The notes beneath the pieces were generated by a model. That model saw nothing but the letters and a program-made list of their open reading frames with translations, made no database searches and was not told where the DNA came from. A stretch of DNA of 64,000 nt from Candidatus Chlorohelix allophototropha (GTDB lineage: Bacteria; Chloroflexota; Chloroflexia; Chloroheliales; Chloroheliaceae): contig NZ_CP128399.1 of the NCBI RefSeq assembly GCF_030389965.1, forward strand, positions 1,240,001 to 1,304,000. The letters run 5' to 3'. The stretch's first letter is position 1. The number at the start of each line of letters is the position of its first letter. Shown piece after piece: positions 3,505 to 14,011 of the stretch. Both the position numbers and the translations under genes were made by a program.

Positions 3505-4605
3505 GTGCATTTAAGAATGTCTTTTGGAACCGTGTTTGCCGGTGCAGTGCTTATGGTCATGACCAGCGTTTTTATGACCGTCGGCTTATCTTCTTTGAGT
3601 TTCCAGCCTGCCCCTTCAGATATAGCCCGTCCGCTCACCGCTCAAGAAGCGCGTGGTCGCCAGATTTACATCAGCAACGGTTGCGTATATTGCCATACGC
3701 AATATGTCAGACCGCAAGATTGGAATGCGGCAGGTGGTGGAAAAGCATCACGGGTGGCACAAGCCGGAGACTATGTTTTCTTGCAGACTATGCTGCTCGG
3801 CTCAGAGCGCACCGGACCTGACCTTTCTCAGGAAGGCGGCATCCATCCTGACGATTGGCATAAAGCGCATTTCAAGAACCCACGCTATACCAGCCCGCAA
3901 TCTATTATGCCGCAATTCAGCTTCATCAAAGATCAAGAACTGGATGACCTGATTGCCTATGTACAGAGCTTGGGTGGAAAAGCTGCCGACGCTCGTGTTT
4001 CCCAAATGCGCGCACAACAAGACGAAGTGCTAAAGGGCTGGTACACCAGCTACGAAACGCATCTTGCCCAAATAAAAGAAATGGTGCCTCCTACTTGGCG
4101 CGACCTCAAAAGCGCGATGACACCCACTACCCGCAGCCTGCTACACGGTAAGCAAATTTTTCTGAGCAACTGCGTGGGTTGTCACGGTCAAAACGGCAAC
4201 GGACGTGGTCCTGCCAGTTCCAGTATGAAGCCCGACCCGGCTGACTTTACCCGCGTGGAATTGCAAGTATCCGCCAGCGACGGTCAATTCTACCAGTATT
4301 TGCTGTTCGGCTTACCCGGCACGTCCATGCCGGCTTGGGGCGACTTCCTAACGGTTAACGACATTTGGGATACCATCAACTTCTTGCGCACTATTCCCAA
4401 GGGCGGTTTGACCTTGCCAGACTCGGAGTTGAAACCCGAAATGATGCTCAACTACGACCCGCGCTACGGTGGCGAAGGCGCAGGGAAGTATCCCGGTCCG
4501 CAACCGAGCAATCCTGATAAAGCGCTGGACAATCCTTATTGCTACATTACACCTGCTGCCAGCGCCACTCAAACGGCGGGTTGCGAAAAGCTGGTGCAAA
4601 AGTAA
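3505..4605 (+). CDS. Dihaem cytochrome c, fused CcoO-like and CcoP-like domains (copy 1)
   Basis: Membrane-anchored electron carrier of 366 residues. One N-terminal helix (about 6-30) is followed by a CcoO-like haem c domain: CVYCH at 60-64, the CcoO-specific TQYVRPQ after it, and SIMPQF with axial Met135. A second, CcoP-like domain has CVGCH at 223-227 and TSMPAW with Met275. In standard cbb3 oxidases these are separate subunits, so one chain probably does the work of both and passes electrons to the CcoN-type subunit encoded at 5775. The start is GTG 3505 with AGGAGAG six bases upstream; a paralogue starts with the same MHLRMSFGTV at 7523. The tail after residue 310 is Pro/Ser-rich with two extra cysteines (about 344 and 359). 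Confidence 0.88.
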   Translation: MHLRMSFGTVFAGAVLMVMTSVFMTVGLSSLSFQPAPSDIARPLTAQEARGRQIYISNGCVYCHTQYVRPQDWNAAGGGKASRVAQAGDYVFLQTMLLGSERTGPDLSQEGGIHPDDWHKAHFKNPRYTSPQSIMPQFSFIKDQELDDLIAYVQSLGGKAADARVSQMRAQQDEVLKGWYTSYETHLAQIKEMVPPTWRDLKSAMTPTTRSLLHGKQIFLSNCVGCHGQNGNGRGPASSSMKPDPADFTRVELQVSASDGQFYQYLLFGLPGTSMPAWGDFLTVNDIWDTINFLRTIPKGGLTLPDSELKPEMMLNYDPRYGGEGAGKYPGPQPSNPDKALDNPYCYITPAASATQTAGCEKLVQK

Positions 4606-4668: not shown

Positions 4669-5775
4669 TTGGCGATTAAACACAAGCAGATGAAAATTGG
4701 CAATTCCGCTACCGCAGAGCGTATCGCTCAAGTAAGCCAGACTTTGCGCTGGACGCTGGTGGCGTTGGTGATAGCGGCAGTTGCCGAACTGCTGGTGTGG
4801 CGCACTTTCAGTCGGGTGGGGGTGTTCATCCCCAAAAGCGAAGGCTCGGTGTTGCAGACGGTTTACACCGTGAGCGTACAGATTGGCACAATCATGCTCA
4901 ATTTTGCGGTTGTGCTGGCGCTGGTTTCGCTGACGTTATCGCTGTCGCGCTTTCGAGTGGGCGGAGAGCTATCGAATGGGCTGAGAACGGGCAGTTTGCA
5001 ACAAAGGCGCAACTTTTACCTAACTATCGCGCTGGTAGCGGCGCTGGTGGTAATGGTAACTTCCACCATATTACTTGGGTTGGTGCAAAACGAGTTTGTA
5101 ACCGTAACTATCCGAGTAGCTTTGCTGACGGCTTTCTGGGCGTTGGCAACGGACATGTGGTTACGTGAGAAAAACTGGCAGATGCGAATGTTTACCGCGC
5201 TAATGCTGGCAGGTTATACCCTACAAATTGTGGATAAGCTGCTGCACGATACGGTGTTCCCTTTGATGGGCGTAAACTGGCAGGAAACGATTTACGAGCC
5301 AGTATTGATGGCAGGGGAGTTGTTGGTAGTAATAAATGGGATGGTGGGCTTTCTCGCGTTTACTCGGCGCGCAGCGCTGGAACGAGGTGCATTTCGCAGT
5401 ATGCTGGAGCATCCCAAAAGCTTGATAGGGGCGGTAGCGTTGGTGGGAATATTTATGTCCCTGACGGTGCTAACCATCGCCGAATCTTCGATAGTGCCAA
5501 TTTTAGGATTATACGCGCTGGGCTACGGTATGCACTGGAATCTGGCGCTTTACGTTATATCGCTTTTCTTCTTCCTCTACACGGTATTTTTCTGCTTTGG
5601 AGAATGGAGGCGGGGCGCGTTTTACCGGGCAACTGCTCTGGGTATGGTGCTGCTATTTGCAGGTGGCTACACCTTCCAAATTTCAGACCAATACCTTTTC
5701 GCACTGGTCGGGGTGCTATTACTGGCACGCCCTGAATTGATGGAGAGTAACGATTTGGTTGGAGGCATGAACTGA
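4669..5775 (+). CDS. Polytopic membrane protein of the oxidase cluster, unknown function
   Basis: I do not recognise this 368-residue protein. It has about ten or eleven hydrophobic segments and no haem-binding CxxCH or clear catalytic motif. Two segments look alike, LMLAGYTLQIVDKLL near 180 and LLFAGGYTFQISDQYLF near 335, which suggests an internal duplication. It is placed between the dihaem cytochrome and the oxidase subunit I and its last codon overlaps the ATG of that subunit (TGATGA at 5773), so translation is probably coupled. A role as an extra quinol-facing or assembly subunit of the oxidase is inference from position. The start is TTG 4669 after AGAAGG; an ATG at 4690 is the alternative. 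Confidence 0.75.
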   Translation: MAIKHKQMKIGNSATAERIAQVSQTLRWTLVALVIAAVAELLVWRTFSRVGVFIPKSEGSVLQTVYTVSVQIGTIMLNFAVVLALVSLTLSLSRFRVGGELSNGLRTGSLQQRRNFYLTIALVAALVVMVTSTILLGLVQNEFVTVTIRVALLTAFWALATDMWLREKNWQMRMFTALMLAGYTLQIVDKLLHDTVFPLMGVNWQETIYEPVLMAGELLVVINGMVGFLAFTRRAALERGAFRSMLEHPKSLIGAVALVGIFMSLTVLTIAESSIVPILGLYALGYGMHWNLALYVISLFFFLYTVFFCFGEWRRGAFYRATALGMVLLFAGGYTFQISDQYLFALVGVLLLARPELMESNDLVGGMN

Positions 5776-7178
5776 TGAACGAAGAATACAGCGCCGCACG
5801 AAGCTGGATATACAGCTCAGCGGTCTGGCTGGCAGTCGGTACCTCATTTGCCATGATTGCGGCAACCGAGATGGTATTCCCCGATTTTCTAGGGGGCGTT
5901 AGCTTCCTTGAGTTCGGACGGTTGCGCCCAATCCATGTGAATGGTGTAACGTTCTTCTGGCTTTCAATGGCGTATTACGGAGCCTTTTTCTATATAGTGC
6001 CGAAGTTAACCGGACGGGCATTGTGGAGTGAAAACCTTGCCAAGATAGTAATGTGGGCGTGGAACTTCCTCGGCATCTTTATGGTAATTACCCTGATGGC
6101 GGGTATGACTCAGGGGCGCGAATATGCCGAAATGATTTGGCCGATTGATATATTTGTGGCTATTGCCACCAGCTTAAACGCCTTCAACATCCTGATGACC
6201 ATCTCCCAACGTGCGGAAAAAAAGATTTATGCTTCGCTCTGGTACATTATGGGCGCGGTAGTTTGGCTACCGATAGTATATGCCATCGGGAACGTCATTT
6301 GGTCGCCACTGGCAGGTGGTGATAATCCCTTTGCCGGTTCGCTGGCGGGCATTAATGATGCTACTTGGAACTGGTTCTACGGGCATAATATTTTGGGCTT
6401 GTGGTTTACTCCCGGCGGCGCGGCGTTGGTATATTACATTGTTCCGGTAGTCACCCGCACTCCCTTATACAGCCACATTCTGTCGCTGGTCGCCTTCTGG
6501 AGCCTCGCGCTATTCTACCCATTGGTGGGACAACATCACTTGCTTTCCACCCCAACCCCCGGTTGGTTGAAAACCGTCGCTACCGTAGCCTCTATCGGCT
6601 TGTTTGTGCCGGTCATTACCTTCCTAACCAATATTTGGATGACCATGCGCGGCAACTGGGGTCGTATATATGCCAGTTTACCCCTGAAATATGTAATAGT
6701 CGGTACGGTCTTTTACTTTGTAACCTGTATCCAGGGACCTTTCCAAGCAATCCAAAGCTTTAACCGCTTGGTGCACTTCACCAACTGGATTGTAGGACAT
6801 GCCCATCTTGCCTTGCTCGGCACGATGACAATGTGGGTGATGGGCGCGATTTACTACATCATACCCGTTACCCTAAAGCGTCGTATCTGGAGTCCGGGCT
6901 TGTGTGAAATTCAATTCTGGTTAGTTACGGGCGGCTTCCTGCTGATAATGATTAGCTTGCAAATCGTGGGCTTGATACAGGGCGCAATGTGGCTGAACGG
7001 CGAAACCGTTTACAAAACCGTGTCTTCGCTGAAACCCTTCTTTATGATGCGCGCGTTTGGCGGTGCGCTGGTAGTTATCGGTGGATATATCCAGCTTTAC
7101 AACATTTACAAGACGGTGAGAAGCGGACCAAAAGTGGATTCGTTTGTACCTCAAACCGCCGCCGAAGTAGGGGCGTAA
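5775..7178 (+). CDS. ccoN: C-family (cbb3-type) haem-copper oxidase subunit I
   Basis: Catalytic subunit of a cbb3-type terminal oxidase, 467 residues, about 12 helices, inner membrane. All ligands are present: His54 (RPIHVNG) and His344 for low-spin haem b, His342 for haem b3 (VGHAHLALLG), and His204 (WFYGHN), His254 and His255 (GQHHL) for CuB. Tyr248 stands six residues before the HH pair, the spacing of the His-cross-linked tyrosine of cbb3 oxidases, which nitric oxide reductases lack. It should therefore reduce O2. It differs from typical CcoN in the loop after HH (LLSTPTPGW in place of LHYTALPDW). It is coupled to the upstream membrane protein. The reading frame is complete and intact. 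Confidence 0.93.
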   Translation: MNEEYSAARSWIYSSAVWLAVGTSFAMIAATEMVFPDFLGGVSFLEFGRLRPIHVNGVTFFWLSMAYYGAFFYIVPKLTGRALWSENLAKIVMWAWNFLGIFMVITLMAGMTQGREYAEMIWPIDIFVAIATSLNAFNILMTISQRAEKKIYASLWYIMGAVVWLPIVYAIGNVIWSPLAGGDNPFAGSLAGINDATWNWFYGHNILGLWFTPGGAALVYYIVPVVTRTPLYSHILSLVAFWSLALFYPLVGQHHLLSTPTPGWLKTVATVASIGLFVPVITFLTNIWMTMRGNWGRIYASLPLKYVIVGTVFYFVTCIQGPFQAIQSFNRLVHFTNWIVGHAHLALLGTMTMWVMGAIYYIIPVTLKRRIWSPGLCEIQFWLVTGGFLLIMISLQIVGLIQGAMWLNGETVYKTVSSLKPFFMMRAFGGALVVIGGYIQLYNIYKTVRSGPKVDSFVPQTAAEVGA

Positions 7179-7446: not shown

Positions 7447-7522
7447 ATGCAGTGGCTAACAGGCACGCACGGCGGCAGGCGCATTTGCCGGGTTGCCAAA
7501 TCCTTATAGAGGAGTGAATTTC

Positions 7523-8629
7523 GTGCATTTGAGAATGTCATTTGGAACCGTATTTGCCGGGGCTGTACTTATGGTCATGACCAGCGTTTTCATGACGGTT
7601 GGTTTATCGTCCTTGAGCTTTCAGCCTTCGCCATCCGACATAGCGCGTCCCCTTACCGCCGATGAGGAGAAGGGACGGCAGGTATATATCAGCAACGGTT
7701 GCGTATATTGTCATACTCAATACATCAGACCGCAGGACTGGAACGCGGCAGGTGGCGGAAAAGCCGCGCGGGTAGCACAAGCGGGGGATTATGTTTTCTT
7801 GCAAACCATGCTGCTCGGCTCAGAACGCACCGGACCTGACCTTTCACAGGAAGGGGGCGTACACCCGGACGATTGGCATCTGGCGCATTTCCAAAACCCG
7901 CGCTTTACCAGCCCGCAATCCATTATGCCTCAGTTTAACTTTTTGAGCGTAGAGGATAGAACCAACCTGATTAAATATGTGCAAAGTCTCGGCGGAAAAG
8001 CAGCAGATGTGCGGATGGCTATCCAGAGCAGCGAAAAGGATGCGCTGGTAAAATCTCTAAACGGCGGTCAAGGCGACCGTTCAGTGACCGACCCTAAAAA
8101 GCCCTATGACCAAGCGCACTTGGATTACCTGATGCAGCAAGTGCCGACAACTTGGAAAAATACCCGTAGCGCGATGCCGCCTAGCAATCGCAGTATTGTA
8201 CACGGCAAGCAGATATTCCTAAGTAACTGTGTCGGTTGTCATGGTTATAACGGGGATGGCAATGGACCTGCCGCTCAATACATGCAGCCGCGCCCATTCA
8301 ACTTCACCGATGTAGCGGCGCAAAAAGTCACCAGCGAAGGGCAATATTATCACTTCTTGTTATTTGGCTTGCCGGGTAGTGCAATGCCCGCATGGGGCGA
8401 TTTCCTGACCGTTAACGACATCTGGGATGTAATCAACTTTATTCGCACCATCCCTAACGGAGGTTTGACCATAGCCGAAGATAAGCTGGATGCTTCGTTG
8501 CAGGTAACAGGACCAAACGCCGGGCCTGAGCCTTCACAGTATGATGCCAATCAGGAATTCTGGTCGAAGAATCCGCCAAACCCGGTTCCAACCGTTGCGC
8601 CGGATCCTAATACCAGTGGAGGGAGATAA
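7523..8629 (+). CDS. Dihaem cytochrome c, fused CcoO-like and CcoP-like domains (copy 2)
   Basis: Paralogue of the cytochrome at 3505, 368 residues. The first 160 residues are nearly the same in both copies: membrane helix, CVYCH at 60-64, TQYIRPQ, SIMPQF with Met135. The linker between the haem domains is longer here (about residues 165-208) and the second domain has CVGCH at 236-240 and SAMPAW with Met288. The start is GTG 7523, preceded by GAGGAGTG at 7509-7516; an in-frame TTG at 7493 is rejected because it lies upstream of that site and the paralogue also starts at MHLRMS. Two such chains beside one CcoN suggests either two electron inputs or a dimeric cytochrome arm. Confidence 0.88.
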   Translation: MHLRMSFGTVFAGAVLMVMTSVFMTVGLSSLSFQPSPSDIARPLTADEEKGRQVYISNGCVYCHTQYIRPQDWNAAGGGKAARVAQAGDYVFLQTMLLGSERTGPDLSQEGGVHPDDWHLAHFQNPRFTSPQSIMPQFNFLSVEDRTNLIKYVQSLGGKAADVRMAIQSSEKDALVKSLNGGQGDRSVTDPKKPYDQAHLDYLMQQVPTTWKNTRSAMPPSNRSIVHGKQIFLSNCVGCHGYNGDGNGPAAQYMQPRPFNFTDVAAQKVTSEGQYYHFLLFGLPGSAMPAWGDFLTVNDIWDVINFIRTIPNGGLTIAEDKLDASLQVTGPNAGPEPSQYDANQEFWSKNPPNPVPTVAPDPNTSGGR

Positions 8630-8632
8630 GAA

Positions 8633-8926
8633 ATGACAAAGCGTAAACTTGTTACTGTTCTTTTACTGGTTTTTCTGATGCTGCTGGCGTTTACCACACC
8701 CGCCTTTGCGCATGAAAACGTGGGGGGCGATGAACTAGCGGCAGCAGACGCAATGTGGATTGTAGCGTCGTTCTTCTTGATAATTTCAGGGTTGGGTATT
8801 ATTTATTCCGTTCAAAACGGCGAATTCCGAAACCCAGAGAAAACCAAACGCGATATGCTCAGACGCGCGCTCTTGGATGATTCCGGTGAGGAGCTAGATA
8901 AATACATTACCATCGAGGAACAGTGA
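8633..8926 (+). CDS. Signal-peptide membrane protein with CcoS/FixS-like segment
   Basis: 97 residues. An N-terminal signal-like helix ends in AFAHE near residue 26, and a second helix (about 41-61) leads into IIYSVQNGEFRNPEKTKRDML. In CcoS/FixS, the small cbb3 maturation protein, one helix is followed by a W/S-x-x-x-G-Q-F-D-D-L-x-x-P-x-x-R-I/M-L segment, so the resemblance covers the position and pattern of this part. The role in haem or copper loading is therefore plausible, not shown. It follows the second cytochrome by three bases with GGAGGGAGA as ribosome-binding site. Confidence 0.6.
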   Translation: MTKRKLVTVLLLVFLMLLAFTTPAFAHENVGGDELAAADAMWIVASFFLIISGLGIIYSVQNGEFRNPEKTKRDMLRRALLDDSGEELDKYITIEEQ

Positions 8927-9018: not shown

Positions 9019-9336
9019 ATGGCGATTGGCTCAATAATATTACAAACCGTTTCTCAGCCTGATATTGTAGCCCCATGGGATTTACCCGTGTGGTACTGGC
9101 TGCTATCGGCAGTGGCTGAGCTATTCGTGGTTCTATTGGTTTTTATGTGGGCGCGCAGCGGACGTGACAAGCATGAGAAAAAAATAGCCTACGACCGTAG
9201 CGCTGAAAACTTCAACGGAGTAATTCAGAGTGGTTTTGGAGCTATACCCTATTTTCTAGTGCTAGTGTGGGCATCCGTTTTTGTGGCAATTGCCGGTTAC
9301 ATTACAGTTTCTCTGATTACGGGGGTGCGATACTAA
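9019..9336 (+). CDS. Two-helix membrane protein of the oxidase cluster
   Basis: 105 residues, not recognised. One helix at about 25-44 (VWYWLLSAVAELFVVLLVFM), a charged loop ARSGRDKHEKKIAYDRS, and a second helix at about 76-98. No metal or haem motif. ATG 9019 follows AGGAG within 8 to 10 bases. It overlaps no neighbour and is followed after five bases by the next small gene. The position inside the cluster suggests a small oxidase subunit or assembly factor, which is inference only. Confidence 0.65.
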   Translation: MAIGSIILQTVSQPDIVAPWDLPVWYWLLSAVAELFVVLLVFMWARSGRDKHEKKIAYDRSAENFNGVIQSGFGAIPYFLVLVWASVFVAIAGYITVSLITGVRY

Positions 9337-9573: not shown

Positions 9574-9888
9574 ATGTCTTACATGCGTTTAGTATCATTT
9601 TCATTGCCCAAAGAAGAAGCCGATGCGATTGTGCCCGGTTCTACCGCTTTTAATGCGCTGGTTGCCGGTCGCAAATTTGTCACCCAAGCCCTTAACGGTT
9701 TGGTAAGTTCGCACGTATGGCGTTCCAGTGGCGCTACCGGCGCGGTGGATTTTGTGATTTCCAGCGAGTGGAATTCACTGGAAGATATGCAGGGTTACTC
9801 GAATAACCCAAACATTATAAAGTTGGAAGATACCCTTAGCGAAAACAACGAAAGCTTCTCTATTTCGATTTACGAGTTGCTCGGCTAG
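9574..9888 (+). CDS. Soluble protein resembling dimeric alpha/beta-barrel (ABM-like) family
   Basis: 104 residues with no signal peptide or helix long enough to span the membrane. The pattern SSHVWRSSGATGAVDFVISSEWNSLEDMQGY, with alternating strands and an S-x-W-x-S-x-E-D-x-x-x-Y turn, is like antibiotic-biosynthesis-monooxygenase type ferredoxin folds. Some of that fold bind or degrade haem, which would suit an oxidase cluster, but no haem ligand is identifiable. It is the only clearly soluble product among the cluster genes. ATG 9574 follows GGGG at about 10 bases. Confidence 0.55.
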   Translation: MSYMRLVSFSLPKEEADAIVPGSTAFNALVAGRKFVTQALNGLVSSHVWRSSGATGAVDFVISSEWNSLEDMQGYSNNPNIIKLEDTLSENNESFSISIYELLG

Positions 9889-9920: not shown

Positions 9921-10604
9921 ATGGAAGTGATTAATAAACCCGGTAGTGATAAAACAAGCGATTCGAACGAGGCTGGATTTAATCCGCCTCCAAATTCGGA
10001 TGAGGATAGAGGCGATAATCATGATAATCGCCCCAATCGTCCCTATGGCAAAATGTCAAAAACCGCGCTAAGCTTGCGCCGGGTTGCCTTTGTTTTGTGT
10101 GGAGCTATGTTCGGGGTCGCTTTTCTTTTTACCATTTTTACGGTAATAGTCACCTCGACACAACCTGAACTCACCCCTAATTTACCGGATGCCAGTTTGC
10201 ATCAAGATGAACTCTACATCAAATTTGATGATGAAGATTTCTATCGCTCACTGGTAGTAATCAGAGATCAAATAGCCGACCCTGATCCTCAAGAAGTAAC
10301 CCAGATTGACGTTGGAAGAAGCTTTAAGCTGGTATTTACGCCCAAACAAATGGATATACCGGAGAATTATCGGATAGTGTATCGCGACCAAAACATGACG
10401 GCGGAAAATGCTGCACTGGAAAGTAATCTCGATCGCAAAGCCGGGCGTAATGTAGAGGGTGGTTTTGATACCTTAACTATTTCTCCTCACAATGGCAAAT
10501 GGCCCGTAGGTCGCTTCCTGATTCTGTATGAGGATGGTGGGATGTTCGGAGGTAGGCTCTTTGCTTATTTTACTGTTAACGAAGCTCCTTCACCAGCGAA
10601 ATAG
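9921..10604 (+). CDS. Single-helix protein with extracytoplasmic beta domain
   Basis: 227 residues, unrecognised. The first 50 residues are polar and Asn/Asp/Pro-rich, followed by one helix (about 55-78, VAFVLCGAMFGVAFLFTIFTVIV), and an external domain rich in predicted strands, ending GRLFAYFTVNEAPSPAK. The topology would put the C-terminal 145 residues outside. Two bases separate its stop from the next in-frame TTG, and a proper ATG follows at 10634. It has no cysteine pair or haem motif outside the helix. Placement suggests a structural or copper-chaperone role, unproven. Confidence 0.6.
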   Translation: MEVINKPGSDKTSDSNEAGFNPPPNSDEDRGDNHDNRPNRPYGKMSKTALSLRRVAFVLCGAMFGVAFLFTIFTVIVTSTQPELTPNLPDASLHQDELYIKFDDEDFYRSLVVIRDQIADPDPQEVTQIDVGRSFKLVFTPKQMDIPENYRIVYRDQNMTAENAALESNLDRKAGRNVEGGFDTLTISPHNGKWPVGRFLILYEDGGMFGGRLFAYFTVNEAPSPAK

Positions 10605-10633
10605 GCTTGTCAACCTGCTTATATGAGGAAGTC

Positions 10634-11251
10634 ATGCGCAAACTAAAAAAACTAATACCTATACTGGTTCTAGTAATGTTGTTTTTCAGCCTTAGCGGAA
10701 TCGCATTGGCGAAGGAAGAAGATAGAGAGAATTTACCACGTATCGCCACCATCGGCAATACCCGGGTAGAAATAGTATTACCGCAACACGATGGAACTAG
10801 CGCCGGTTCTGATATTACCTTTGTATTCAAGGTAACTGATTTGGCTGGTAATCCCCTGAACAATCAGGATTTAAGTTTTATGGCGGTACGCGATTACAGC
10901 GGTCAGGTTAAGAAAGAGTTCAATGGGCCACATGACCCGGTAATCGGTCCGGACAAACTACAGCCCACTGGAAACCCTGGCGAATACAAAGTAGTTGCCA
11001 ATTTCTGGCACAACGGGCATTGGCAACTGAGTGTAAGCAGCGCCGATTTTGAAGCCCCCTTGCGCTTTACCCAATCAATCAGCAGCGACCCTGCCGATGG
11101 TACGGGGTTTAGCTGGGATTGGCTGATTTGGCCTGCAATGCTGATTATTGCCACTGGGGTTGTTCTGTTTATCGGCAGGAAAGGCGACAAATTCCCTGTC
11201 CCGGTTGAAGAAGTCAAAGGCTTCCAAGAAGTTGCCGGAGCAAGAAGGTAG
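10634..11251 (+). CDS. FixH/YtkA-like secreted, membrane-anchored protein
   Basis: 205 residues. A signal peptide (MRKLKKLIPILVLVMLFFSL, cleavage near SGIALA) precedes an Ig-like domain of the YtkA/FixH type: a strand pair with DLAGNPLNNQDLSFMAV, then PTGNPGEYKVVANFWHNGHWQLSVSS. A single helix near the C-terminus (about 158-178, WLIWPAMLIIATGVVLFIG) anchors it. FixH/CcoH proteins take part in cbb3 oxidase assembly, and YtkA-like domains are often linked to copper, so copper delivery to the CcoN subunit is a fair inference. ATG 10634 is preferred to TTG 10607 because GAGGAAG lies just upstream. Confidence 0.68.
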   Translation: MRKLKKLIPILVLVMLFFSLSGIALAKEEDRENLPRIATIGNTRVEIVLPQHDGTSAGSDITFVFKVTDLAGNPLNNQDLSFMAVRDYSGQVKKEFNGPHDPVIGPDKLQPTGNPGEYKVVANFWHNGHWQLSVSSADFEAPLRFTQSISSDPADGTGFSWDWLIWPAMLIIATGVVLFIGRKGDKFPVPVEEVKGFQEVAGARR

Positions 11252-11260
11252 AGGAGACTT

Positions 11261-13450
11261 ATGGCGGATATTCTACTTGAAAAAAGCGGCAAAGCAGAGA
11301 AACCCGATATTCTGGCGGGTTATTACGATACCAGTAACCTAGCGCCGGACGGCACCTATTACAGTAACGACTCTATATTGGTAAAATTCTTTTTAGCGCA
11401 GGTGCTGGCGCTGTCGGTAGCGGCTATACACGGCGTGTTCCAGCGTTTGCCCTTCATGGCAGAATGGTTGCGCGAAGCCGATTACGGTGGTCACCTTTTC
11501 ACCAATCTAGGTCTAACCCATATCAACGTGGTACTAGGGGGAACAATTTCCATAGCCGGATTGACCTACTATGTGTTGCCGCGCTTACTCAAACGCCGAC
11601 TTTTCAGCGAAACGCTTTGCAATATTTCGTTCTGGTTCACCTTTAGCGGAGTGTTGGGCTTTTACATGGCACTGCTGCCGATAGGTTTGACCGAGGGTGC
11701 GCTGGTTCATCAGGGCTATACCTATACTCAAGCTAAAGATATTGTCGGCTTTTGGCACAAAGCCCCCGAAGCAATTACCGCTTCGGCAATGGGCATCGGC
11801 TACTGGCTATTTGTGACCAACGTAGTTATGACCATTTGGTCGGCGCGCCGCCAATCCAATCGTGAGCAAATATTCGCCGCCAAATTCTTCGTGGTTTCGG
11901 TGGTAGCTTTGTTGCTCGGTACGCTTCAGGGCGTATATCAGGTATTGCCGTGGTCGCTGGACTGGCTCTATAAGGTGGGCGCAGCCGGACAACTGATTGA
12001 CCCGATGTCGCACGCTCATATGAATCTGGTAGGCGGTTGCGTCTTTGCCTTTGCCGGATTTGTCTATTACTTCTTGCCGCGCATTACCGGAAAGCCGGTG
12101 TATAGCATCCGCCTTGCAAACTTCTCTTTCTGGTCAATGTTCATCGGCGTATTTACCTTCTGGTTGGTGCTAATTATTCTCGGCTTTATCGAAGGGGACA
12201 TGGTAATTTCGCAAGGCATTACCCCCATCGCTGCAAAACAGGCGGTTGGCTTCTGGCATCCGCTATTGATTTCGTCCGCCGCTTCAATAATGCTGCTAGG
12301 CTTCTGGACTTTTATCGCCAACATAGCCTTAACCTTGAAGCAGGGCATCGGTCAGTCGAAAGAGCGATTTCTGGCGGTTGGTTTGGGTTTCACAGCCATA
12401 GCCCTATTTATAAGCACCAGTCAAGGTATCTTACAGGTTATACCAAGCTTTACCACTTGGCTCGATCAAGCGCGCGAAGCCGGAGAAATGATTACTCCTC
12501 TTTCCCACGCGCAAATGAACATCATCGGGGTGGTAACTCTAACGTTAGTTACATGCGGTATGTTCGCAGTGCCGCGTATGGTAAATCGCCGCCTCTACAG
12601 CTACACCCTCGCTAAGTTTTCCATAACAATGATTGTGGTGGGGGTTAGTCTGCTATATGTAATTCTGGTAGTGCTAGGCGTTACCGAAGGAAACATTATC
12701 CGTGAGGGCAATACCTTTGCACAGGCACGCGCCGCCGTCACGGGCGATATGCACGACTGGATACTGGTAGGGTTATACGCTATCATCGGTACGGCATATT
12801 TAACCTACGCCTACAATCTACTGCGTACAATGGGTAAAGCTACCCTCGCCAAGATGTTAGGCAAGGCGGGCGATAACCTGCAACGAACCACACGCTATTT
12901 GGTAGCAATCAATGTGCCACGCGCCACCTTAGAACAAGCGCAACGCTCTGCAATCCTTGCCAATGGAACGATTAGCGACCCAGATTTCAGTGGAGTGGTG
13001 GTTTCGAGTACAACCGCTGCCGCCGATAGCGGTTCTTTACCAGCCGCTAACCTAACTACAATTCGCAAGGGCGGGTATGTTACCCGACTATCGCACATTG
13101 TAAATATCAACCCGTGGAAAATCTTTGCGCTGGAAGTAGTTCCGGGTATCTTCGGGTTTTTGGGCGTAGGCTGGCTGTTAAGCCGTCGTCCGGCAATGGC
13201 AGTTTTACTGTTTACCGGATGGCAAGCCCTTTTCTGGATTTGCTTCTGGGCAGTAGCGGTACTGATGGCACCCGATTGGTTGCCGATATTTGTAGGGATT
13301 TATCTCATCCTACCCTTTGTAAGTGGTTGGGTAGCTGCACAAACCTATCGCAAACGAGCCGCTGAAATTAAGCGCGAGGTTACCCGCAGTCTCATTAGCG
13401 ATACCGCCGAAAGCACGCTTAATAAAGAACAGCGTGCCGGAGTAGAATAA
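11261..13450 (+). CDS. Triplicated haem-copper-oxidase C-terminal module, 729-residue membrane protein
   Basis: Three tandem units of about 155-165 residues (about 39-193, 206-358, 369-522), each equivalent to helices IX-XII of the CcoN encoded at 5775. Each unit starts with a helix ending Q/H-G-v-x-Q-x-x-P, then the helix X motif, Y-x-x-P-R, a FW/FS helix, G-x-x-E-G, and a final helix. In CcoN the helix X motif is GHAHLALLG with both haem ligands. Here unit 1 has THIN (only the second His, H87), unit 2 has SHAHMN (both, H251 and H253) and unit 3 has SHAQMN (only the first, H416). CuB ligands and the cross-linked Tyr are absent, so it is not itself an oxidase. A C-terminal part (about 615-695) adds three helices. 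A haem-b binding electron or quinone subunit is possible. I know no described family with this layout. Confidence 0.82.
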   Translation: MADILLEKSGKAEKPDILAGYYDTSNLAPDGTYYSNDSILVKFFLAQVLALSVAAIHGVFQRLPFMAEWLREADYGGHLFTNLGLTHINVVLGGTISIAGLTYYVLPRLLKRRLFSETLCNISFWFTFSGVLGFYMALLPIGLTEGALVHQGYTYTQAKDIVGFWHKAPEAITASAMGIGYWLFVTNVVMTIWSARRQSNREQIFAAKFFVVSVVALLLGTLQGVYQVLPWSLDWLYKVGAAGQLIDPMSHAHMNLVGGCVFAFAGFVYYFLPRITGKPVYSIRLANFSFWSMFIGVFTFWLVLIILGFIEGDMVISQGITPIAAKQAVGFWHPLLISSAASIMLLGFWTFIANIALTLKQGIGQSKERFLAVGLGFTAIALFISTSQGILQVIPSFTTWLDQAREAGEMITPLSHAQMNIIGVVTLTLVTCGMFAVPRMVNRRLYSYTLAKFSITMIVVGVSLLYVILVVLGVTEGNIIREGNTFAQARAAVTGDMHDWILVGLYAIIGTAYLTYAYNLLRTMGKATLAKMLGKAGDNLQRTTRYLVAINVPRATLEQAQRSAILANGTISDPDFSGVVVSSTTAAADSGSLPAANLTTIRKGGYVTRLSHIVNINPWKIFALEVVPGIFGFLGVGWLLSRRPAMAVLLFTGWQALFWICFWAVAVLMAPDWLPIFVGIYLILPFVSGWVAAQTYRKRAAEIKREVTRSLISDTAESTLNKEQRAGVE

Positions 13451-13616: not shown

Positions 13617-13699
13617 ATACTTGAAAAACATGCTGGCTTTATCCCCTGTTTCGTGTGCCGGGATTAACTTTTGCTGGTAGATAGTTGCGGAGGTTTAAG

Positions 13700-14011
13700 A
13701 TGTTTGCTTTTGACAAACCCTTTGTTTGGGTAATTATTCTACTGATTATAATCGTGCTGTTCGGGGCAAATCGCCTGACAGACATCGGGAAGTCGTTGGG
13801 ACGTGGTATTCGAGAGTTTAAAGAAGAAACTCAGGCTGCAAATAAAGATACCAAGCCGGAATCCACAACCACCACTACTACAGTTGCCAGCAGCGCCGTT
13901 ACACCTGCGGATGATGAAGAAGTGGTAATTACCCGCCGTGAGCGCAAACGTGAAGATGGCACAACCGAAGTTATAGAAGATCGGGTCATTCGAAAAAAAG
14001 CGCAACTTTAA
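13700..14011 (+). CDS. tatA: Sec-independent (Tat) translocase subunit TatA/E
   Basis: Pore-forming component of the twin-arginine translocase, 103 residues. One N-terminal helix (about 8-22), the hinge FGANRLTDIGKSLGRGIREF, an amphipathic helix, then a Thr-rich linker and a charged tail rich in Arg, Lys and Glu. The FG at the helix end is the conserved pair of the family. The start is ATG 13700 after GGAGG at 13690-13694; the TTG at 13685 lies before this site. No tatC lies next to it, so partners are elsewhere. The unusually long charged tail distinguishes it from short TatE forms. Confidence 0.92.
   Translation: MFAFDKPFVWVIILLIIIVLFGANRLTDIGKSLGRGIREFKEETQAANKDTKPESTTTTTTVASSAVTPADDEEVVITRRERKREDGTTEVIEDRVIRKKAQL

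Follow-up and report, generated by a model that had tools for sequence, protein, structure and literature searches.

A three-unit CcoN-like protein with two predicted haem b sites, encoded beside a cbb3 oxidase in Candidatus Chlorohelix allophototropha

The cbb3 oxidase gene cluster in the window (the whole 64,000-nucleotide stretch of the Candidatus Chlorohelix allophototropha genome that we analysed) contains a gene at 11261..13450 (+) encoding a CcoN-like protein of 729 residues, characterised here from its open reading frame, a Pfam COX1 match, an AlphaFold2 model and Foldseek comparisons. It is built of three homologous four-helix units followed by a membrane domain. The best reading overall, which we hold to be probable, is that this protein is a dihaem-b accessory electron-transfer subunit of a variant cbb3 oxidase and that it arose by a separate triplication; haem binding and function are what we infer within this reading. 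The protein would thus add a probable dihaem b subunit to the cbb3 oxidases of Chloroflexota, Alphaproteobacteria and Thermoleophilia, and bears on how electrons are delivered there.

A three-fold ring is the long-standing view of the haem-copper oxidase fold, and to our knowledge intermediates are missing. A free four-helix unit carrying both haem ligands, together with an independently fused trimer, would allow the proposed origin of subunit I by triplication to be tested directly. This ancient fold has seemingly been built by tripling more than once, and relatives of the single block survive as free genes.

Three homologous units and the predicted fold

The three units, each of four helices, comprise residues 39-193 (unit 1, 11375..11839), 206-358 (unit 2, 11876..12334) and 369-522 (unit 3, 12365..12826), all on the + strand, and were compared by blastp, by profile comparison and by Smith-Waterman alignment. 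Units 1 and 2 share 39% identity over 151 residues (blastp E 1e-36), units 2 and 3 share 32% (5e-25) and units 1 and 3 share 31% (3e-20). The between-unit Smith-Waterman scores were 299, 211 and 175, against a maximum of 61 for shuffled sequences (n = 500) and 31-40 for reversed units. The units are homologous beyond doubt, and the boundaries and mutual homology that a first-pass annotation of this DNA had proposed for them are borne out by these searches and the shuffle control.

Pfam COX1 matches the 729-residue protein in three stretches (6e-28) and units 1, 2 and 3 singly with E-values of 3.5e-11, 1.6e-12 and 6.9e-6, the value for unit 3 falling below the curated cut-off. Against TIGR00780 (NCBIfam ccoN, cut-off 583 bits) the protein scores 46 bits, a weak test since the CcoN of the same cluster also fails with 317. 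Profile comparison places the units closest to the last third of CcoN (helices IX-XII; E 1e-16 to 1e-21, at 19-25%, or about 22%, identity), with only 1e-4 to 1e-9 for the first and second thirds, and the earlier assignment of the units to helices IX-XII agrees with this. The thirds of CcoN also match one another (E about 1e-8 to 1e-13), hence the three-unit build is the plan of the whole subunit I family, CcoN included, and is not peculiar to the 729-residue protein. The units of the latter are 31-39% alike, whereas the thirds of CcoN are only 16-25% alike.

AlphaFold2, run without templates on an alignment of 18 homologues, gave a model with a pLDDT of 80 and a pTM of 0.73, with values mostly of 85-97 in the unit cores. 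The 12-helix core is followed by a weakly predicted stretch and then by the C-terminal membrane domain (residues 545-729, 12893..13447, +), in which E625 and W638 are invariant in the alignment of homologues; this domain also matches separate open reading frames of about 200 residues in other Chloroflexota. In Foldseek searches of the PDB cbb3 CcoN came out on top, with E 9e-9 to 1e-7 and TM-scores of 0.70-0.76 when scaled to the target length; on the same scale NorB reached 0.77-0.78. The matches comprised about 500-545 aligned columns. The model contains the three four-helix arcs of the subunit I fold that defines the haem-copper oxidase superfamily. The 12-helix core is therefore predicted to represent the whole subunit I fold and not three tail ends; subunit I being a ring of three units in its own right, the match spans all of it. 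The first-pass annotation had described a duplicated, partly haem-binding module evolved from an oxidase; the haem-type histidines, the homology of the units and their nearness to CcoN helices IX-XII are upheld, and the three tail ends have to be given up on the Foldseek evidence.

The protein shares with CcoN, the catalytic subunit of C-type cbb3 oxidases, the 12-helix three-unit fold, sequence homology, a place in the same cluster and an HxH motif borne by the second helix of a unit. It differs in having no CuB ligands, in a ligand set that is shifted by one unit and in its extra C-terminal membrane domain. NorB and qNOR are likewise similar in fold, but the three-unit protein shows neither an FeB site nor their catalytic ligand set.

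Invariant histidines and predicted haem sites

Only four histidines are invariant in the 18 homologues, which come from Chloroflexota, Alphaproteobacteria and Thermoleophilia: H87 at the 'second' position of unit 1 (11519..11521), H251 and H253 at the 'first' and 'second' positions of unit 2 (12011..12013 and 12017..12019) and H416 at the 'first' position of unit 3 (12506..12508; all +). All other histidines vary. The split of ligands noted earlier (second in unit 1, both in unit 2, first in unit 3) is thus exact. The place of the second histidine in unit 3 is taken by Q418 (12512..12514, +), which is glutamine in 18/18 homologues and would face a predicted haem-free pore between units 3 and 1. 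The first position of unit 1 is occupied by L, Q, N or Y, except that in locus L027 it is a histidine. This homologue (L027 10013-11932) carries five of the six histidines, with HTH in unit 1, and is a possible intermediate in histidine loss.

In haem-copper oxidases the helix II histidine and the second histidine of helix X bind the low-spin haem, and the first histidine of helix X (haem b3) shares the binuclear pore with that of helix VI (CuB). Measured to the proline that ends the second helix, H251 and H416 lie at 22 residues and H87 and H253 at 20. In CcoN the corresponding distances are 22 for the helix II and first helix X histidines and 20 for the helix VI and second helix X histidines. 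In hhalign comparisons of the first and last thirds of CcoN, the helix II histidine aligns with the first position of helix X. For helix VI, hhalign sets the histidine at the first position by way of a two-residue gap inside the helix, and the ungapped reading gives the second.

From the known ligand chemistry, the three-fold symmetry and the histidine register we deduce a facing rule, by which the second histidine of one unit would share a pore with the first histidine of the next. H87 with H251 and H253 with H416 would then form two full pairs, predicting two bis-His haems b and none in pore 3/1, a deduction that uses the ungapped register of helix VI, which hhalign does not reproduce. Two full pairs would arise by chance in about 1 in 5 cases if four of six histidines were retained at random. 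The ligands had been thought merely split and partly kept; by the symmetry argument they would instead make exactly two complete facing pairs.

Of the CuB ligands (the helix VI histidine and the helix VII His-His pair), no counterpart was found of the pair, the helix-3 position being without histidine in every unit; the claim that the CuB site is absent therefore stands. Nor does the protein follow the order of low-spin ligands on helices II and X, since its HxH motif lies in unit 2 and not unit 3 and its single 'first' histidine lies in unit 3 and not unit 1.

We propose that the three units close into a 12-helix ring like that of CcoN, in which one bis-His low-spin haem b would occupy each of pores 1/2 (H87 and H251) and 2/3 (H253 and H416). 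The two haems would be neighbours close to the periplasmic face, in the manner of haems b and b3 of CcoN. The third pore would have lost its second-position histidine (now Q418), and usually the first as well, and would hold no haem. Having no CuB, the protein would be incapable of O2 reduction. Two invariant residues, D247 and Q418, are at best candidates for a quinone site.

The oxidase cluster and the three-unit homologues

The cluster is compact and lies on one strand (+). It begins with a fusion of CcoO and a class I cytochrome c (3505..4605; FixO 1e-33, Cytochrom_C 5e-21), followed by a multi-helix protein, by CcoN (5775..7178) and by a second CcoO-cytochrome c fusion (7493..8629; FixO 2e-30, Cytochrom_C 1e-20). 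As judged by profile and alignment, this CcoN is a catalytic subunit with all six ligand histidines and the helix VII tyrosine. Two small membrane proteins come next, one a conserved partner found in 8 loci (8633..8926) and the other found in 3 loci (9019..9336) and resembling, by eye, the N-terminal helix of CcoP without its cytochromes. The run then continues with a Dabb-like protein, an anchored and presumably periplasmic protein (9921..10604, hereafter the 9921 protein), an anchored YtkA-like protein (10607..11251) and the three-unit gene. The YtkA-like protein may be CcoH/FixH-like, its Pfam YtkA match (6e-5) being slightly below the cut-off. The last two gaps are of 3 bp and then of 10 bp, the latter separating the end of the YtkA-like gene from the start of the three-unit gene.

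Several features of the cluster are worth recording in their own right. CcoN is flanked by two CcoO-class I cytochrome c fusions within a single cluster. The multi-helix protein between the first of these and CcoN (4669-5775, 368 residues) has no family match and was found only in the window and in a locus of the same family, L024. The small Dabb/ABM-like protein (9574-9888) is retained in same-family loci, and loci L031-L033 have a different protein of 102 residues at a similar place. A TatA-like protein, recognised by eye, is encoded immediately past the three-unit gene (13685-14011).

The same triplicated layout was looked for in other genomes, as had been suggested, and was found in the 18 homologues compared. 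These include proteins from Chloroflexota (Ktedonobacteria and Anaerolineae among them), Rhodobacterales, Roseibium, records of Aurantimonas and Paracoccus, and a Thermoleophilia bin. Some of the loci come from metagenome bins with possibly mistaken names, such as L028, labelled 'Proteobacteria', which groups with Ktedonobacteria. The protein is rare, occurring in 5 of 301 sampled Chloroflexota genomes (that of the window counted) and in 1 of 198 genomes of the phylum of the Thermoleophilia host, namely that host itself. The Roseibium homologue had no match in the plasmid collection, and no match was found in viral contigs.

In all 14 loci where both genes were measured, CcoN lies 2.5-5 kb upstream of the three-unit gene on the same strand, showing the linkage to ccoN/ccoO expected of an accessory cbb3 subunit. 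The linked CcoN keeps all its ligands and the helix VII tyrosine, so the oxidase looks functional. Linkage to CcoN does not by itself prove a complex. The Chloroflexota and Thermoleophilia loci that were examined have a relative of the 9921 protein beside the three-unit protein or fused to its C-terminus, an argument for the two working together; the family is absent from the alphaproteobacterial loci. The fusions occur in two phyla (L032 9857-13147, 1097 residues; L038 7185-10409, 1075 residues) and have more helices after the periplasmic family.

Stand-alone units, origin and possible role

At gammaproteobacterial loci one unit occurs as a gene of its own, of 188-208 codons, directly before ccoN. 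This family, SA, with proteins of about 180 residues overall, was found in 24 of 274 genomes of Gammaproteobacteria and in 45 of 299 of its phylum (Pseudomonadota), in cbb3/CcoG clusters where its usual neighbours are CcoG, small cytochromes and a 170-residue protein. Both histidines are invariant in the 19 SA genes aligned. Profile comparison of SA with units 1, 2 and 3 gave identities of 43, 46 and 31% and E-values of 1e-51, 1e-56 and 1e-43. A model of one SA unit has a pLDDT of 92 and matches CcoN best (TM-score 0.73 by query length). The cbb3 clusters of some SA-bearing genomes hold another family of single units, SB. Both families are matched only by Pfam COX1, at profile positions of about 300-433. 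They differ from the window protein in having one unit of about 170-200 residues, so that a ring would require trimerisation; if SA formed a homotrimer, this would have three full histidine pairs. No description of the single or triplicated unit was found in the literature searched, which is weak evidence of novelty given its thin coverage of subscription journals; the available cbb3-cluster passages of the Nitrospina, Zetaproteobacteria and Mariprofundus papers mention neither form.

The first-pass annotation had derived the units from the end of CcoN. In the profile comparisons the free-standing four-helix family is closer to the units than is any part of CcoN, and, as judged from these sequences, the units derive from it or share an ancestor with it. 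In a tree of units, the first, second and third units (T1, T2 and T3) each form one group, T2 with weaker support (90/80), so the triplication occurred once, ahead of the spread between phyla. In some lineages unit 3 is evolving rapidly. The split between {units + SA} and {CcoN thirds + SB} has support of 99/97 (99.2/99 in a reduced set). Collinear descent from CcoN was rejected by the AU test (p = 0.019, reduced set).

The three-unit protein is likely, though not proven, to represent a triplication separate from that of CcoN. We envisage that a free-standing, HxH-bearing four-helix unit was triplicated and fused apart from the subunit I triplication. The rival history, in which an ancient duplicate of CcoN underwent circular permutation of its gene by one unit, lost CuB and was then homogenised, would account for a ligand set equal to that of CcoN shifted by one unit (units 1, 2 and 3 corresponding to helices VI, X and II). 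In the reduced set it was only just rejected (AU p = 0.048, borderline), and the single pairing T1+C2 gave a non-significant p of 0.18. We nevertheless consider it quite unlikely, as all three units resemble one another and the stand-alone unit more than they do any third of CcoN, in line with the 99% split, and permutation leaves unexplained why all three most resemble the last third. The nearness of SA and SB to that same third suggests that they may be broken-off ends of CcoN rather than relics. It is a rather unlikely proposition that the building block of subunit I survives in the stand-alone unit, which would act as a homotrimer carrying three bis-His haems, and that the triplication was repeated independently in the window protein, where two haem sites were kept and one lost.

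As to function, lateral electron transfer would be the likeliest job, because of the two adjacent haems b predicted near the periplasmic face and the fixed place beside CcoN/CcoO. Electrons would move through both haems to the haems c of the CcoO-cytochrome c fusion, perhaps from quinol, a plausible donor but one that we regard as less likely than not. The computations show the triplication, the fold, the invariance of the ligands, the linkage and the existence of the stand-alone unit; we infer haem occupancy, membership of the complex and the direction of electron flow, as we do the quinol donor. A bc1-type cytochrome b is encoded in all 11 hosts checked, and NrfD in only some hosts. The three-unit protein is thus not the only path by which these hosts can move electrons from quinol to cytochrome c; its use of quinol need not be assumed, and the idea that it is a necessary substitute for bc1 was rejected.

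Other roles fit parts of the evidence. In a haem or copper assembly factor the units would bind haem b transiently for CcoN, the stand-alone units doing likewise as trimers, and CcoG and thioredoxin-like genes do adjoin the stand-alone units, while the YtkA-like neighbour resembles copper/assembly proteins. We think this unlikely, since two complete ligand pairs that do not vary from phylum to phylum fit a stable cofactor, the 12-helix fold, C-terminal domain and conserved periplasmic partner fit a structural subunit, and most cbb3 oxidases dispense with the three-unit protein. A haem-based sensor or store of O2, NO or CO that regulates the oxidase would suit a haem-copper oxidase fold with haem in gas-reachable pores, but both predicted haems are ligated by two histidines with no free site and the cluster shows neither a signalling domain nor a kinase or regulator partner, making this highly improbable. 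Very unlikely too is a structural relic that holds the complex together and retains its histidines for packing; the fast divergence of unit 3 in some lineages would agree with it, yet exactly four histidines are invariant in 18 proteins and the others vary. An accessory subunit for electron transfer remains our preferred reading.

The SB genes (L123 7426-7962, L130 1558-2082 and L116 5140-5667) carry a GHGH/AHTH motif and are found upstream of ccoN, where their neighbours are cytochromes and a thioredoxin-like gene. DUF2871 (PF11070), also a small multi-helix family, matches SB weakly and below the cut-off (E 2e-4 in L116, 0.013 in L123), and in the Pfam search gave no match to the three-unit protein. 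A protein of about 172 residues with a weak Bact_hydrolase match regularly adjoins the single-unit gene (L114 7237-7755, - strand; L156 9123-9638). One further single-unit gene (L163 6213-6749, - strand) has the second histidine only (ALGH) and alone would be unable to form a facing pair.
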